Assembly: GCA_016204535.1 (NCBI GenBank)
Contig: JACQKL010000007.1
Location: 1 to 36,011 of the forward strand
From: Candidatus Levyibacteriota bacterium
Lineage (GTDB): Bacteria; Patescibacteriota; Microgenomatia; Levybacterales; UBA12049
Length of the DNA stretch: 36,011 bases
Direction: 5' to 3'
The notes under the pieces were generated by a model. That model was not told the DNA's origin and searched no databases. It saw nothing but the letters and a program-made list of their open reading frames with translations. Every line of letters begins with the position of its first letter. The stretch's first letter is position 1. The position numbers were made by a program, and so were the translations under genes. Below are positions 6,768 to 13,078 of this stretch, piece by piece.

Positions 6768-6868
6768 GAGCTCCTTTACGAAAAAGTTCGGACCGCTTTC
6801 GTATTATCATTGTAGTCGCTCACTTCGTTCGCTCCTATTATTTATATTGCTCGGCCTTCGGCCTCGCT
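6768..6868 (+). repeat. Inverted repeat IR-A (left copy)
   Basis: Reverse complement of 11266-11366, near identical over about 91 bp (GAGCTCCTTTACGAAAAAGTTCGGACCGC...GCTCGGCCTT), then weaker. Confidence 0.92.
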
Positions 6869-7067
6869 TTAGTATTTTTTGCACGGACCGAAAGTGCGCG
6901 ATTTTTTTCGGAACTCTTGGGAATATTATATCAGGTTTTTCCTAATTCCGTTTCAACCCACCCACCCGTTTATGGTGGCGGCGACCCCGCCTTTGGGCGC
7001 TAGACCCGCCTTGGGGCGGGTTTGCCCACAGTTTTCGTTTTTTAAATTCCGCTACAGTATCTTCCCC

Positions 7068-7092
7068 ACCCGCCGCGGGCGGGTTTTCTTTT
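7068..7092 (+). terminator. Intrinsic-terminator-like hairpin ACCCGCC-GCG-GGCGGGT followed by TTTTCTTTT
   Basis: Perfect 7-bp GC-rich stem (7068-7084) plus T tract; no convincing + strand ORF upstream. Confidence 0.6.
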
Positions 7093-7356
7093 AGCGTTAC
7101 TTAGTTTCGTTGCGCCGTCGGCGGGATGTGTCCGCTATTCGCCCCCGCCTTAATTATTTTACCCCTTCCCGTTCATGTTGCCGCAACGAAGTTCGGTTGG
7201 CGAACCCGCCGTCTTCTAATACAAAAATATTCTTCGGCGTGTTCGCTTGGTCGGGCTTCCTATCCGAATGAAATTCTTAAGTCGAGTTTTCCCTGACGGG
7301 CGCCCTCCTTTTAGCAACGACTCCATCGGGAGCGGGGGCGGCGGACCGCCAGAAAG

Positions 7357-7400
7357 AATCGGCCAGATTGGTGGAAATTGGCCGATTCCCGTGCTAGACT
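7357..7400 (+). promoter_or_regulatory. Promoter/operator of the 7407 gene: inverted repeat AATCGGCCA-N13-TGGCCGATT (7357-7387) and extended -10 TGC-TAGACT (7395-7400), 6 nt from ATG
   Basis: Perfect 9-bp arms immediately upstream of the -10. Confidence 0.55.
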
Positions 7401-7406
7401 AAATTT

Positions 7407-8099
7407 ATGCCAGACGATCCGATTCAAGACAACCAAGACCAGACGACGAGCCAACCGGAACCGCAACCGGAAGAATCAAAACCAGTTGAAGACCTGTCCT
7501 CCGAAGTCTCGACGAAGGAGGAAAATCCGAAGCCCGAAGATATTCCAACTCCTGAACCGCCGAAAGAAGGGGCTCCAGCCGACCTGTCCTCCGAAACCTC
7601 GGTGAAGGAGGAAAATCCTGCGCCATCCGAACCAGAACCGGAGAAAAGGCCCGATGAACCGAAGCCGGAAGAACCAAAGCAAAGCGAAGAAAAGAAATCC
7701 GAAGATTCCAAGCCTTCCTTGCCCGCCGAAGCTTCAACGAAGGTGGGAGAGCCTGAAATAAAGATTGTCGAGAAAGAAGTCATCAAAGAAATTCCGGTTG
7801 AGGTTATAAAAGAAGTGAAAGTTGTCGACGAAACAGAACTTGGCAAGCAACTCGATGAGAAATTCAAAGCAAAGCTTCTGGAAAATAAAAAGAAAGCCAA
7901 CGAGGCGAGATCTCAGAAGAAGAAAGATCATCTGGATAGAATTGTTGAGCTGGCAAAGAAAAAAGAGATTAATAATCAGGATGTCAGAGATTTATTGCAG
8001 GTTTCACAAAGCACGGCGACAAATTACTTAACAGAATTGACTAAATCTGGTAGACTAAAGTCGGAAAAGAAGGCTAAGGCAAAAGTATATAAAAGTTAA
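7407..8099 (+). CDS. Acidic Pro/Glu/Lys-rich protein with C-terminal winged-HTH DNA-binding domain
   Basis: Low-complexity P/E/K/S N-terminus with repeats DLSSEVSTKEENP / DLSSETSVKEENP; C-terminal HLDRIVELAKKKEINNQDVRDLLQVSQSTATNYLTELTKSGRLKSE. Confidence 0.8.
   Translation: MPDDPIQDNQDQTTSQPEPQPEESKPVEDLSSEVSTKEENPKPEDIPTPEPPKEGAPADLSSETSVKEENPAPSEPEPEKRPDEPKPEEPKQSEEKKSEDSKPSLPAEASTKVGEPEIKIVEKEVIKEIPVEVIKEVKVVDETELGKQLDEKFKAKLLENKKKANEARSQKKKDHLDRIVELAKKKEINNQDVRDLLQVSQSTATNYLTELTKSGRLKSEKKAKAKVYKS
7493..7528 (+). repeat. In-frame palindromic repeat copy 1 (CCTCC-N14-GGAGG core at 7498-7521)
   Basis: CCTGTCCTCCGAAGTCTCGACGAAGGAGGAAAATCC; near-identical copy 90 bp downstream. Confidence 0.75.
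7583..7618 (+). repeat. In-frame palindromic repeat copy 2
   Basis: CCTGTCCTCCGAAACCTCGGTGAAGGAGGAAAATCC. Confidence 0.75.
7717..7747 (+). repeat. In-frame palindromic repeat copy 3 (diverged)
   Basis: CCTTGCCCGCCGAAGCTTCAACGAAGGTGGG; same layout as copies 1 and 2. Confidence 0.6.
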
Positions 8100-8107
8100 A
8101 GTTATGA

Positions 8108-8134
8108 CGTTGTACTATGCTACAACGCTACAAT
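8108..8134 (+). promoter_or_regulatory. Inverted repeat CGTTGTA-CTATGC-TACAACG (8108-8127) plus -10 TACAAT (8129-8134), 6 nt from ATG 8141
   Basis: Perfect 7-bp arms immediately upstream of the TrpR-like gene. Confidence 0.5.
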
Positions 8135-8140
8135 AGTACT

Positions 8141-8428
8141 ATGGCAACACTTAATTTAGAGAAAGATAAAAAGTTATTGGTAGCAACCCTACGAAAATTA
8201 AAATCCTCAAAAGATTTATCAGCTTTTCTTGATGATCTTTTAACCGAAGAGGAAATTCTTGATTTAGCTCAAAGAATTAAAATCGCAAAATTAATTCTTG
8301 ATGGAAAAACCTATGATGAGATTGCAGTAAAAGTTGAAACTTCCACATCCACAGTTTCAAAGATTGGTCAGATAATTAAATACGGCAAAGGCGGGTTACA
8401 GAAAGTTTTGGAAAAAATAAAATTATGA
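8141..8428 (+). CDS. TrpR/YerC-YecD family transcriptional regulator
   Basis: DLLTEEEILDLAQRIKIAKLILDGKTYDEIAVKVETSTSTVSKIGQIIKYGKGGL; ORF track extends upstream to 8117 but ATG 8141 fits the promoter. Confidence 0.85.
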   Translation: MATLNLEKDKKLLVATLRKLKSSKDLSAFLDDLLTEEEILDLAQRIKIAKLILDGKTYDEIAVKVETSTSTVSKIGQIIKYGKGGLQKVLEKIKL

Positions 8429-8739
8429 ATCTATATTTCATTATTCTAGTTGTTTTTATCTCTGTGATGTTAATTATTTATTTTTGCCTAAGTAAGCATA
8501 ATCTTGAAAAATTTTTCCCAAAACCAGAACTTGATATGGCTAGCATAGCAGGAGTAATATCTCAAATTATCAAAACTCATGCACAGATAATTATTGGATC
8601 ATTTGTAATCTTGGTTTTAACGGCTTTATTAATAGAAAATAAAATATCTTCAGAGGCTGCGATGCCGATTATCTCACTGATTACCGGTTACATTCTCGGT
8701 TCAGAGATAAATACATATAAAAATAAAGATAAGGGTTAA
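8425..8739 (+). CDS. Small membrane protein of unknown function (two predicted TM segments)
   Basis: Two long hydrophobic stretches; ATGA overlap with the upstream stop suggests translational coupling. Confidence 0.55.
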   Translation: MNLYFIILVVFISVMLIIYFCLSKHNLEKFFPKPELDMASIAGVISQIIKTHAQIIIGSFVILVLTALLIENKISSEAAMPIISLITGYILGSEINTYKNKDKG

Positions 8740-8862
8740 TCAATATGGGAAAATGCTAGGCAAGGGCGGGAGACGCTGATTTGATGTTTTTAACAAGCAT
8801 TTTCTACTTGATAATTTTTAAACGAAACATTATGATTAGCTTGGGATGGAAAGGCATATCTC

Positions 8863-10053
8863 ATGTTGAAGAAAATAATTAAATTTATTTCAAGTTTACT
8901 CATCTGGTATTTCATTGGTTCCTTGTTCTATTTAACAGCAATAGGAGTCAAGGTTTTAAATAGTTCTCTTCCTACATTTTTATTATTCATAACAATTTTT
9001 CTTGTTGTGTGGAGACTATTACGAAAGACCTTGCAAAAAATAAATATTGGCAACGATATTCGCATCAGAAGATTTTATAGCCGTTCTCGAACACTTCTTA
9101 CTGTAGGAGCAATACTTCTATTGATTTATCAACTTATAGTTTCCCCATTTATACTAAAACCGCAGAAGGTAACCGTTTCCTATGGTAGTTTAAAAAGCGG
9201 TACTTTATTGACTTTTGTATACCATAATGGATTCTCACGTATAAACAGAGCTGATATTATTATCTACTTTTCACCTAAAAACTCAGGAGACACAATTACT
9301 AGGGTTATTGGCATTCCGGGAGATAAGATTATATTAAAAGGTGGATTTGTATATCTAAACGGTAAATTTTTAAAGGAACCATATACGATTCAACCGAGAA
9401 AAACATGGACAGATTATTCAGGGGTTATAATAGGCAAAAATTGCGAGGAGATAATTGTACCCCAACGCAAATACTTTGTATTAAGTGACGATAGGGAATA
9501 TGGATTTAATTCTTTGGTTGAAGGATTCATTTCGGAAGACAAAATAACAGATTATTTGCCAGCTAAGCTCCTAAAAAATTTTATATTTAACCCTAACGAT
9601 TTGTTTAACAATAATAGAGATACATCCAAAGACATGGAGCTAGTAAAGGAGCCCATATTGGATACTCAAGATTATGTAAGGCTTATAAATATAAAACGGC
9701 AGGAAAATGGAGCTGAACCATTAAGGTACGACAAGAAGCTAGAGCGATCGGCAGATTTAAGGTTGCAGAATATGCTAAAGCTCGATGATCTTTCTTATGA
9801 AGCAACGAAGAGCGGATACGTAGCGTGGAAAGCTCTCGCTGATGTCGGATATAACGATAAAGCCTATTTATATTTAGAGCGAACTCTTGAGGCAAATTTT
9901 AACTCCAATTCATTATCCAATTTTTATTGGGAATTCGGAGATAGGGAAAACTTTCTTAGTAAAGAGTTGAAATATATAGGGGTAGTTTCTAAAATTGTTG
10001 ATATAGATAGTTGCCCAAAACAGGTTATTGTTCAGCATCTTCTCGGTCAGTAG
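8863..10053 (+). CDS. Membrane protein with degenerate signal-peptidase I (S26)-like domain and C-terminal CAP/SCP-like domain
   Basis: ITRVIGIPGDKIILKGGFVYLNG and YFVLSDDREYGFNSLVEGFISEDKI resemble SPase I boxes; LINIKRQENGAEPLRYDKKLERSADLRLQNM...WEFGDRENFLSKELKYIGVVS resembles CAP. Confidence 0.65.
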   Translation: MLKKIIKFISSLLIWYFIGSLFYLTAIGVKVLNSSLPTFLLFITIFLVVWRLLRKTLQKINIGNDIRIRRFYSRSRTLLTVGAILLLIYQLIVSPFILKPQKVTVSYGSLKSGTLLTFVYHNGFSRINRADIIIYFSPKNSGDTITRVIGIPGDKIILKGGFVYLNGKFLKEPYTIQPRKTWTDYSGVIIGKNCEEIIVPQRKYFVLSDDREYGFNSLVEGFISEDKITDYLPAKLLKNFIFNPNDLFNNNRDTSKDMELVKEPILDTQDYVRLINIKRQENGAEPLRYDKKLERSADLRLQNMLKLDDLSYEATKSGYVAWKALADVGYNDKAYLYLERTLEANFNSNSLSNFYWEFGDRENFLSKELKYIGVVSKIVDIDSCPKQVIVQHLLGQ

Positions 10054-10151
10054 CTTATTCAAAGAGAGCATGTTCGATTACTTTGCTCTTTACCTCAAGA
10101 ATATATTCTCAAAGAGCCATTAGGAGATGCAGCTCTTAACTAGGGGTGGGG

Positions 10152-10180
10152 TTGACAAGAATTAGTTTCCAAAGTATGCT
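10152..10180 (+). promoter_or_regulatory. Promoter TTGACA (10152-10157) - 17 bp - TATGCT (10175-10180)
   Basis: Canonical -35 and spacing upstream of the 10219 small ORF. Confidence 0.5.
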
Positions 10181-10218
10181 ACTGTTGACAAAAGAATTTT
10201 ATGGAGGAAGGACGAAGC

Positions 10219-10368
10219 ATGAATTGCAGACATCAATATCTTGTTGAGAAAATTAAGGACATGCCAAATGTTGACTTTCATCATGCATGTGATGGAGATC
10301 TTTCAAAAAGGTGGAAAACTTCTATGTGTAAATTGTGTGGACATATAAAAACCGAACCAATTTTTTAG
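10219..10368 (+). CDS. 49-aa Cys/His-rich microprotein (putative zinc-binding)
   Basis: MNCRHQYLVEKIKDMPNVDFHHACDGDLSKRWKTSMCKLCGHIKTEPIF; strong SD (GGAGGAAGGA) 7-9 nt upstream; absent from the ORF track, which shows no ORF under 60 aa. Confidence 0.55.
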   Translation: MNCRHQYLVEKIKDMPNVDFHHACDGDLSKRWKTSMCKLCGHIKTEPIF

Positions 10369-10465
10369 ATATTATCATCTTTTTTTTTGAAGAAATAATA
10401 CTATGAATATTTTTGTGGAGAGGAAAAATTGTGTTTATCCTGAAGACTTGAAGTAAAATACGCTT

Positions 10466-11089
10466 ATGGAAACAACCGCCTCTGCTTTACTCGATCAAAT
10501 TAACCTAAGTTTAAAGCCTCTTGGGAATTTAAATAAACCATTCTATTTTGACCCCAATTTTCTTGGAGCAATGCTCGCGTCAGTTGCCGCTTTGGGTATA
10601 GCTATATTTAGCGAACAACTTAGAGGCCTATGGAGAAAAACAAATCTTACAGTGCAGAGAATACTTCCAAATGAACAAGGAAATGGGAATTCTATCCACT
10701 ACAGACTTTTAATAGTAAATAAAGGTAGCTATCCAGCAAAAGATGTAGAGGTGTATGTAGATAAGATCTACGAAAATAATAGAGAAAGGAGGAATTTCCT
10801 GCCAGTTCCTTTAAGATGGGCTCACGCCCGAGCCTATATGACTGCCGGAGTCTATAGAAATATACATCCTAATCAATCTGTCTTACTTGATTTTTGTGAA
10901 CTTATTAAGAGCAATAATCTGCTTAAATTAAGTCTAGCTGCGGGAGATGAAGTTCCAGATTATTGCATACTGCATGGTGGAGACACAAAGGTAGCAATAA
11001 AGATATATCAGGAAGATGGAAAGACAATTACGACAAAATTCAAAATCTCGTGGCAAACTAATTTTAATATACAGATTTCCGTGATTTGA
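10466..11089 (+). CDS. Hypothetical single-TM protein with a C-terminal beta-rich domain
   Basis: N-terminal hydrophobic FLGAMLASVAALGIAIFSEQL then IHYRLLIVNKGSYPAKDVEVYVDKI; -10 TAAAAT at 10454-10459, 6 nt from ATG. Confidence 0.55.
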   Translation: METTASALLDQINLSLKPLGNLNKPFYFDPNFLGAMLASVAALGIAIFSEQLRGLWRKTNLTVQRILPNEQGNGNSIHYRLLIVNKGSYPAKDVEVYVDKIYENNRERRNFLPVPLRWAHARAYMTAGVYRNIHPNQSVLLDFCELIKSNNLLKLSLAAGDEVPDYCILHGGDTKVAIKIYQEDGKTITTKFKISWQTNFNIQISVI

Positions 11090-11165
11090 TATAGAAAAAC
11101 TCAGTTGAAATCTTCCATAAAGCTGCTACACTAAAAACGTGATCAAACTTTCCTTTCGGCTTTTT

Positions 11166-11218
11166 AATGGCCGTTTTGAACAGATCCGAATGGATTTGAG
11201 CACACCAGAACGGCCATT
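11166..11218 (+). repeat. Stem-loop with 10-bp perfect arms AATGGCCGTT ... AACGGCCATT and inner ATCC-GAAT-GGAT
   Basis: Arms 11166-11175 and 11209-11218. Confidence 0.6.
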
Positions 11219-11265
11219 TGAATTTTTGGAAAAATTTTTGCGTTTTTTCTCGCCGACAGTTTTTG

Positions 11266-11366
11266 AGCGAGGCTCAAGGCCGAGCAATATAAGTAATAGG
11301 AGCGAACGAAGTGAGCGACTACAATGATAATACGAAAGCGGTCCGAACTTTTTCGTAAAGGAGCTC
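11266..11366 (-). repeat. Inverted repeat IR-A' (right copy)
   Basis: Reverse complement of 6768-6868. Confidence 0.92.
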
Positions 11367-11465
11367 AGAATGGGACTTTCCCAAAGCCAAGGTTTTGAGG
11401 CTGGGGGAAGAAAACCCCGAATAAAGCTCCGCAAAGCCTAAATTGTAGGCGGGGAAAAGTTGCCG
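11363..11465 (+). repeat. Inverted repeat IR-B (103 bp)
   Basis: Perfect reverse complement of 12908-13010; the ORF track shows the same peptide MRSFIRGFLPPASKPWLWESPILS from both copies. Confidence 0.95.
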
Positions 11466-11510
11466 GTTAAAAGAGAAAAAAAACGCAAAAATTGGGGAAA
11501 TAAGACTGCC

Positions 11511-13072
11511 ATGAAATATATAGCGTACTGTAGGAAATCAACAGACGAAAAGGACAGGCAAATTCTCTCGATAGAAGCTCAAATAGCAGAGCTAACTGAA
11601 TTTGCCAAACGAGAGGGCTTGGAAATCTCGGAATTTATCACGGAAGCCAAGACAGCCAAGATTCCCGGCCGTGAACAATTTGACAGGCTTTTAATGCTGC
11701 TTGAGAAAGGAAAAGCTCAAGGAATTATCTCCTGGCACCCGGATCGTCTGGCAAGAAATTCCATAGATGGCGGAAAGATCATTTATTTACTTGATACAGG
11801 CAAACTTTTTGACCTGAAATTCCCCTCCCATTGGTTTGAAAATACCCCGCAGGGGAAATTTATGCTTAGCATTGCCTTTAGTCAATCCAAATACTACATA
11901 GACAATTTAAGCGAGAATGTTAAAAGAGGTTTAAGAAGAAATTAAGAAATGGCGTATTACCTTCTAAGGCTCCATGGGGATACAAAAATAATGAGGAGTT
12001 TGGGACTATTGAAATTGACGAAGTAAAATCAAAAATCCTTAAGAAAGCCTTTGAATTGTTTGCTAACGGAAATAAATCATTTACCGACATCTCAATCTAT
12101 CTTTTTAAAAATGGTTTTACTGACAAGTATGGAAGACAACTAAAGATAGACAGGCTTAAAAATGCTTTAAGCAACAAATTCTATATCGGGATCATCTATT
12201 ACGGGGGAGAATATTATGAGGGAAAGCATAAATTATTTATTTCGAAAACATTATTTGATCAGGTACAAAAACAGTTCAAGCTTAGGGAAAGAGCCAGGCC
12301 CAATAACAAACACCATTTATCCTTCTTGGGGCTCATGAAATGCGGAGAATGTAAGGCTTCAATTACGGGAGAGATGAAAACTAAATTTTACAAAGGAACG
12401 CAAAGAAAAGCTGAATATATTTACTATGGTTGTACTAAAAAATTGAAAAACTGTTTGCAGAAACCAATTCCCGAACCGGAATTGGAATTGCAGATAACAA
12501 AAGCCATTAGCGATGTGGCTTTGCCCGAAGAATGGGCTGATGATTGGCATAAATGGCTCAAAGGAGACGAATTACAGGAAAAGCAGTTAAAAGAAGAAAA
12601 TTTACAAAACCTAGATGAGGAAATTAAAGCACTGGACCAAAAATTAAATTTTCTTCTAGACAGCTACTTGGACAACGTGATTGACGCCGATATTTACAAG
12701 AAAAAGAAGAATGAATTATTCGAAGAAAAGTTAAGAAAACAGGAAGAAATTACCAAATTTCAGGCAAACGGTTCCGGTTGGCTCGGACCTTTCAGGGAAT
12801 TCATAGATAGCGCCATGCGGTGCGAAAAAATCGCGCGTGCAAAAAATACTAATGAAGAATTGGCATTCTTCGCAAAAACTGTCGGCTCGGACTTCTTTTT
12901 AACTGATCGGCAACTTTTCCCCGCCTACAATTTAGGCTTTGCGGAGCTTTATTCGGGGTTTTCTTCCCCCAGCCTCAAAACCTTGGCTTTGGGAAAGTCC
13001 CATTCTGAGCGGGATACGAGAATCGAACTCGCTTCTCTACCTTGGGAAGGTAGCATACTACCAGTGTACTAA
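11511..13072 (+). pseudogene. Large serine recombinase (resolvase + recombinase + zinc-ribbon/coiled coil), interrupted by a frameshift at about 11938-11943
   Basis: Part 1: KYIAYCRKSTDEKDRQILSIEAQIAEL...GIISWHPDRLARNSIDGG. Part 2: after a frame change KLRNGVLPSKAPWGYKNNEEFG...FLGLMKCGECKASITGE...YYGCTKKLKNC. Confidence 0.9.
12908..13010 (-). repeat. Inverted repeat IR-B' (103 bp)
   Basis: Perfect reverse complement of 11363-11465; its last 2 nt overlap the tRNA-Gly 3' end. Confidence 0.95.
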
Positions 13073-13078
13073 TCCCGC
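13008..13078 (-). tRNA. tRNA-Gly(CCC)
   Basis: GCGGGAT/ATCCCGC acceptor; anticodon arm CTACC-TTCCCAA-GGTAG; T-arm GCGAG-TTCGATT-CTCGT; U73. Confidence 0.9.

Follow-up and report, generated by a model that had tools for sequence, protein, structure and literature searches.

Organization of the island between pyrG and tRNA-Gly

The window, that is, the whole stretch of 36,011 nucleotides analyzed here, carries an island between the pyrG upstream region and the 3′ end of a tRNA-Gly(CCC) gene. Its parts, including two pairs of inverted repeats with the arms A/A′ and B/B′, follow one another in the order flank, A, cargo, A′, B, recombinase, B′, and tRNA-Gly 3′ end.

6768-6868, + strand: A arm, left end of the element, with the outer GAGC core; putative attL, formed by the flank and P′
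6787-6793: P′ motif TTCGGAC in the A arm
6869-6910, − strand: patches complementary to 3′ codons of the recombinase (ARAKN region), just inside A
7407-8099, + strand: acidic protein with a C-terminal winged-HTH; the relatives in loci L058 and L118 have an M23 peptidase domain
8117-8428, + strand: TrpR-like repressor (Pfam PF01371)
8425-8739, + strand: small membrane protein, with two transmembrane segments according to the earlier note and only a sub-cut-off DUF2921 match
8863-10053, + strand: fusion of a signal peptidase S26 and a CAP domain (Pfam)
10201-10368, + strand: 55-aa ORF
10466-11089, + strand: hypothetical protein without a family match
11126-11222, − strand: pseudoknotted RNA-like element S (match of 70 bits to model R1; the RNA strand may be either)
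11233-11265, − strand: patches on the inner side of A′, with complementarity to KTVGS codons and the leader of the recombinase
11266-11366, + strand: A′ arm, which together with B makes the putative inverted intact attP (junction c2)
11266-11465: putative inverted intact attP (A′.B), between the cargo and the recombinase
11363-11465, + strand: B arm, an inverted copy of the recombinase 3′ tail located 5′ of the gene
11511-13072, + strand: large serine recombinase, the frame of which is broken once; its 3′ end overlaps B′ and reads into the tRNA in antisense
12908-13010, + strand: B′ arm, putative P half-site, which codes for the recombinase C-terminus and terminates inside the tRNA
13007-13078, − strand: tRNA-Gly(CCC), the target, with the attR core GAGC at 13007-13010 and the T-arm CGAAC at ~13024-13028

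The A and A′ arms form an inverted pair of 101 nt with 97% identity, and the B and B′ arms form a pair of 103 nt with 100% identity, both exactly at the positions given by an earlier note on this DNA. All remaining inverted repeats in the 9 kb are at most 33 nt long with ~73% identity, so the A and B pairs are not due to chance. The repeats had been described as nested, but their arrangement is consecutive, A..A′B..B′. The tetranucleotide GAGC is present at all three boundaries (6768, 11361, and 13007), and at the right edge these 4 nt are shared between the island and the 3′ end of tRNA-Gly(CCC), in agreement with the claim that the island ends inside the tRNA. The host genome is a metagenome-assembled genome (MAG) of 605 kb and 83% completeness, in which neither further A or B repeats nor a second resolvase-family gene was found.

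In all four genomes of the same genus the tRNA site is empty, the pyrG upstream region being directly joined to GAGC-tRNA-Gly(CCC), which defines the mobile unit as 6768 to about 13006. An empty site in relatives and a short core repeat at both ends are the traits of an integrative element. The comparison with related genomes proposed in the earlier note thus returned the empty sites and cargo variants sought, with the same layout found around other cargo at other tRNAs, and the reading of the locus as a mobile accessory island at tRNA-Gly is upheld. The sequence and the comparison make it very probable that the island is a large-serine-recombinase (LSR) element integrated into a CPR genome.

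Recombinase and its relatives

The window recombinase contains the YCRKS motif and the Pfam domains PF00239 (resolvase), PF07508 (Recombinase), and PF13408 (zinc-ribbon), spread over two frames. A resolvase N-terminal domain with the catalytic serine, combined with Recombinase and zinc-ribbon domains in ~500 aa, characterizes the large serine recombinases; intact relatives have open frames of 512-562 codons, and the best PDB relatives are structures of the SPbeta large serine integrase YokA. The gene was therefore rightly named as to its domains but is not intact in the assembly, with a break near 11,940. Given this frameshift, the recombinase copy in the window is possibly dead, and the same may hold for the window copy of the element. 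In the recombinase tree, the placements and branch lengths of the window and L118 were not used; the L118 match spans frames, and the N-terminal half of the window protein is misframed.

Recombinases of the same family end at tRNA 3′ ends in L058 (Lys), L059 (Gln), L060 (Gln), and L061 (Pro), where they are flanked by inverted repeats of 103-157 nt that include the gene's own 3′ tail. A second repeat pair surrounds the cargo in L058, L059, and L061, with the partner arm several kb further left; the L060 contig ends too early. In L061 the layout comes from a 99% complete genome assembled as one contig, with A arms of 334 nt and B arms of 159 nt. An independent IS-like unit B as the full story was ruled out by the A arms in L058, L059, and L061.

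A scan of GTDB genomes yielded 80 further loci, giving a survey set of 84. The scanned loci are nearly all from CPR; a few were assigned to bins of Omnitrophota, Marinimicrobia, Syntrophaceae, or Sulfuricaulis, possibly through binning errors. The B pair is present in 68 of the 84 loci (36-162 nt, median identity 99%) and is accompanied by an A pair in 35 (25-354 nt, median identity 100%), the cargo between the A repeats measuring 583-7986 nt. A′ and B overlap by a few nt in 31 of these 35 loci. Among the 33 loci with B and without A, 21 have less than 400 nt of contig upstream and hence are not judgeable, and four with almost 10 kb upstream show no A pair. A tRNA or tmRNA gene lies at the recombinase 3′ side in 64 of the 84 loci; no tRNA was found within 700 nt on the 5′ side in 80 loci, and the recombinase orientation relative to the tRNA is invariant. 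The targets comprise 13 isotypes (Gln, Leu, Gly, Lys, Ile, Ser, Pro, Glu, Val, Trp, Ala, Arg, and Cys) plus one tmRNA, at the 3′ end of which an element of the group is inserted (L131, 1835-1962). Two recombinases with 94% identity (L058 and L077) have different targets, tRNA-Lys and tRNA-Glu. Judging from these genomes, the element group is widespread in CPR; only two relatives were found among viral contigs.

Related recombinases at the 3′ ends of tRNA-Trp and tRNA-Asn genes (L062, L063, and L076) are without inverted repeats, so that targeting of tRNAs extends beyond the elements with the repeat layout. Isolated recombinase C-terminal tails were also observed (L065, L066, and L067; the L065 tail adjoins tRNA-Pro) and are probably remnants of decayed elements.

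Attachment sites and probable targeting of the tRNA T-arm

The element end at the tRNA edge carries the discriminator base and first acceptor bases of its particular target and varies by isotype, the core being GCTG for Gln, GTCG for Pro, GTGC for Leu, GAGC for Gly, and GTGA for Lys. Such matching of the core to the target isotype means that the tRNA is restored after insertion. When near variants of the motif are allowed, the T-arm CGAAC is located at position 16 of the tRNA half in 45 of 46 sites, and the CGAAC motif is located at position 20-21 of the A arm in 43 of 46. The offset between the two is 4-5 bp, farther out in attP, in 42 of 46 sites. For serine integrases, the published rule is that the zinc-ribbon motif lies 5 bp closer to the center of attB than to that of attP (PMC3783163), and the T-arm motif takes the corresponding place in those 42 sites. 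Because the offset matches this rule (PMC3783163), we infer that the A arm serves as the P′ half-site, and the T-arm of the tRNA as the B′ half-site of attB. The recombinase apparently recognizes the tRNA side of attB through the T-arm. Since nearly every tRNA, and tmRNA as well, has a T-arm, recognition of this kind would account for the many isotypes targeted. Both the identity of the island as an LSR element and its targeting of the tRNA T-arm are well supported by these sequence comparisons.

In the proposed insertion, an attP with the B′ arm as its P half and the A arm as its P′ half would be joined by the recombinase to attB at the tRNA 3′ end. The product would consist of attL (6768), the cargo, the inverted intact attP (11266-11465), the recombinase, and attR (13007).

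Cargo

The cargo ORFs were confirmed together with the Pfam assignments of the TrpR-like protein (E = 4e-18) and the fusion of signal peptidase S26 and CAP. The supposed 55-aa zinc-type microprotein did not hold up, the ORF at 10201 being without any family match. The idea that the cargo genes are functionally linked gains limited support from the winged-HTH and TrpR-like genes, which are found as a pair also in L058 and L118. This pair occupies 7407-8428 in the window, 2455-4329 in L058, and 3744-5578 in L118, and a small membrane protein follows TrpR. The TrpR-like protein of the window shares 56% identity over 86 aa with an L058 cargo protein, and no sequence similarity was found between the membrane proteins of the window and L058. 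The cargo had also been suggested as an undescribed mobile system; it is the recombinase with the two repeat pairs that forms the mobile system, and not the cargo, which is almost entirely different from one element to the next.

The 98 cargo proteins include restriction-modification enzymes (HpaII, DpnI, Mrr, and methylases), AbiL/OLD-like AAA proteins, M23 peptidases, XRE-like regulators, and many unknowns, and in some elements transporters as well.

Complementary patches and the RNA-like element S

The patches inside A and A′, of 17-37 nt, mostly show 90-100% complementarity to the recombinase gene that the element itself carries and to the leader of this gene. In group 1, which includes the window, they correspond to ARAKN codons, KTVGSN codons, and the leader, and in group 2 to FAAKEKLEIV, KTAKEPG, and LKNIGSN codons and the leader; the patch sequences vary along with the element's own recombinase gene. 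Own-recombinase patches were seen at the same places in about 24 elements. These matches make the cargo unit look like a recombinase unit in circular permutation, with the gene replaced, and the patches may go back to an event long ago in which an element integrated into a second element's recombinase gene.

Element S, of ~103 nt, is predicted to fold into a three-helix pseudoknot. The R1 model was built from 13 copies, one of them that of the window. In the covariation analysis of S, 91% of the cells are paired and 19 of 30 pairs show double changes, values reached by 0 of 500 shuffles and far above those of slid controls. No Rfam family was found for S at Rfam thresholds, and loose thresholds gave only weak matches well below gathering scores. 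S is found with many of the recombinases, for example in L058 (7810-7913) and L123 (9865-9975); of the 73 family genomes, 21 have it, at 26 places in total. In group 1 it neighbors the leader copy within the cargo unit, and with other recombinases, some just 23-35% identical, it is located close upstream of the recombinase start. Helix 1 contains a conserved C.A mismatch, equivalent to G.U on the recombinase-sense strand, which favors S as a 5′ leader RNA, while other pairs point the opposite way. A role of S as a target guide was ruled out, since L058 and L084 have similar S elements but insert at tRNA-Lys and tRNA-Val, respectively.

Paired repeats and the putative inverted second attP

The junctions c1 and c3 correspond to attL and attR, respectively, and the middle junction c2 (A′.B) is the inverse of the attP expected from joining B′ to A. 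It follows that the integrated element keeps an intact inverted attP between the cargo and the recombinase. Excision by attL x attR would yield a circle with two identical attP sites, inverted and separating the cargo arc from the recombinase arc, and the two copies would be homogenized in each cycle; such a circle is the form we favor. In 19 hand-picked pairs, the B arms are 99% identical within an element and 87% identical between related elements. Arms so alike within but 13% different between elements suggest that something homogenizes them, in the manner of concerted evolution. The invariant recombinase orientation and the cargo-unit orientation, fixed in all 14 judgeable group-1 elements by the marker patches, argue that this homogenization does not proceed by free inversion. 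Moreover, two equivalent attP sites predict both orientations and only one is seen, so something further should distinguish them. We tentatively suggest that the second attP keeps an intact attP beside the recombinase gene in every state, and it might serve the copying or repair of the circle. Two candidate explanations were dropped: integration by ssDNA fold-back, in which a serine recombinase would leave broken chromosome ends, and a palindromic core as the source of symmetry, which fits Gly (GC) and Pro (CG) but fails for Lys, Ala, and Ile.

Composite transposons and IS are units that are bounded by inverted repeats and move independently; here, a solo cargo unit was seen in G024 and paired units in fixed order elsewhere. 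The G024 unit (L187, 9128-12621) carries A repeats at tRNA-Pro, and no recombinase of this family was found in the G024 genome. Remnants like this unit were also observed at tRNA-Pro in other genomes. In such solo cargo units, either the recombinase unit was lost or the cargo is able to move in trans.

The paired repeats could alternatively reflect two independent tandem elements, with an IS-like recombinase unit (B/B′) inserted at a tRNA next to a cargo unit (A/A′) that is non-autonomous and moved in trans. Each unit is indeed closed by its own repeat pair, the cargo unit is similar at its inner ends to a recombinase unit in permuted form, and the solo A..A′ unit of ~3.5 kb in G024 abuts tRNA-Pro with no recombinase beside it. 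However, independent insertions would produce varied orders and orientations, whereas A′ abuts B with a common core wherever both are visible, and a single cargo unit is always combined with a single recombinase unit, without variation in order or orientation. A alone, furthermore, has only P′-type ends and by known rules makes no complete attP. We regard this explanation as unlikely. Far less probable is an inversion switch for phase variation of the cargo or recombinase: long inverted repeats with recombinase sites do flank both segments, but neither the recombinase nor, in the 14 of 14 elements with marker patches, the cargo unit changes its orientation, and S and the leader copy are always at the A′ side. 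That the repeats are a metagenome assembly artefact is hardly credible, even though the window and most relatives are MAGs, arms of ~100 nt are close to assembler k-mers, and 21 of 68 contigs end less than 400 nt from a repeat, since real long inverted repeats also cause contig breaks in short-read data, dozens of assemblies from different assemblers share the structure with arms from tens of nt to 354 nt, the arms differ by point changes (97% identity in the window), and a single-contig genome has the same layout.

Significance and comparison with known systems

To our knowledge, few mobile elements have been described for CPR bacteria. We consider that the elements with two inverted attP sites probably represent an undescribed, widespread class of CPR integrative elements, defined by a T-arm landing motif, two inverted attP around the cargo and recombinase segments, which are kept identical by some copying process tied to mobility, and an associated pseudoknotted RNA. 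An account of the inverted-attP layout was not found in the open-access PMC literature, subscription papers and preprints being outside the scope of the search. The group would be a common vehicle in CPR for defense and surface genes and a natural serine integrase group with a target motif common to nearly all tRNA genes and a core matching the isotype. For serine-integrase directionality, the conserved pair of inverted attP sites poses a concrete problem.

With respect to ICEs and IMEs, no relaxase or conjugation genes were found in the window cargo, nor such families among the 25 most-matched families of the 98 cargo proteins in three libraries. SCC elements encode ccr large serine recombinases and form cargo islands and tandem units at the 3′ end of the conserved gene rlmH (orfX). 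The CPR element is similar in its large serine recombinase, cargo-bearing islands, tandem units, and target at the 3′ end of a conserved gene, but its target is the tRNA-Gly 3′ end, and its long paired inverted repeats and inverted attP set it outside SCC. Tyrosine-integrase islands insert at the tRNA 3′ end and restore the tRNA, leaving a short direct core repeat. The CPR element shares the 3′-end insertion, the tRNA restoration, and a short core repeat, but has a serine recombinase, a core of ~4-6 nt, and long internal inverted repeats. In the yeast 2-micron plasmid (FLP), the recombinase sites lie in two identical inverted repeats, and the gene for the recombinase extends into one of these, which is the same topology as that of the predicted circle of the CPR element. 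Compared with this plasmid, the CPR element has a serine integrase and an integrated state, and its fixed orientations do not support inversion; no replication gene was recognized in the CPR elements, some of which have cargos of less than 1 kb. Domains, size, attP/attB logic, and the ~5 bp shift of the zinc-ribbon motif (PMC3783163) are shared with the large serine integrases of the A118, phiC31, and SPbeta YokA type, which belong to phages and integrative elements. Unlike these, the CPR element targets the T-arm of tRNA and tmRNA genes of many isotypes, and its putative attP overlaps the recombinase 3′ end, with a second, inverted attP 5′ of the gene.
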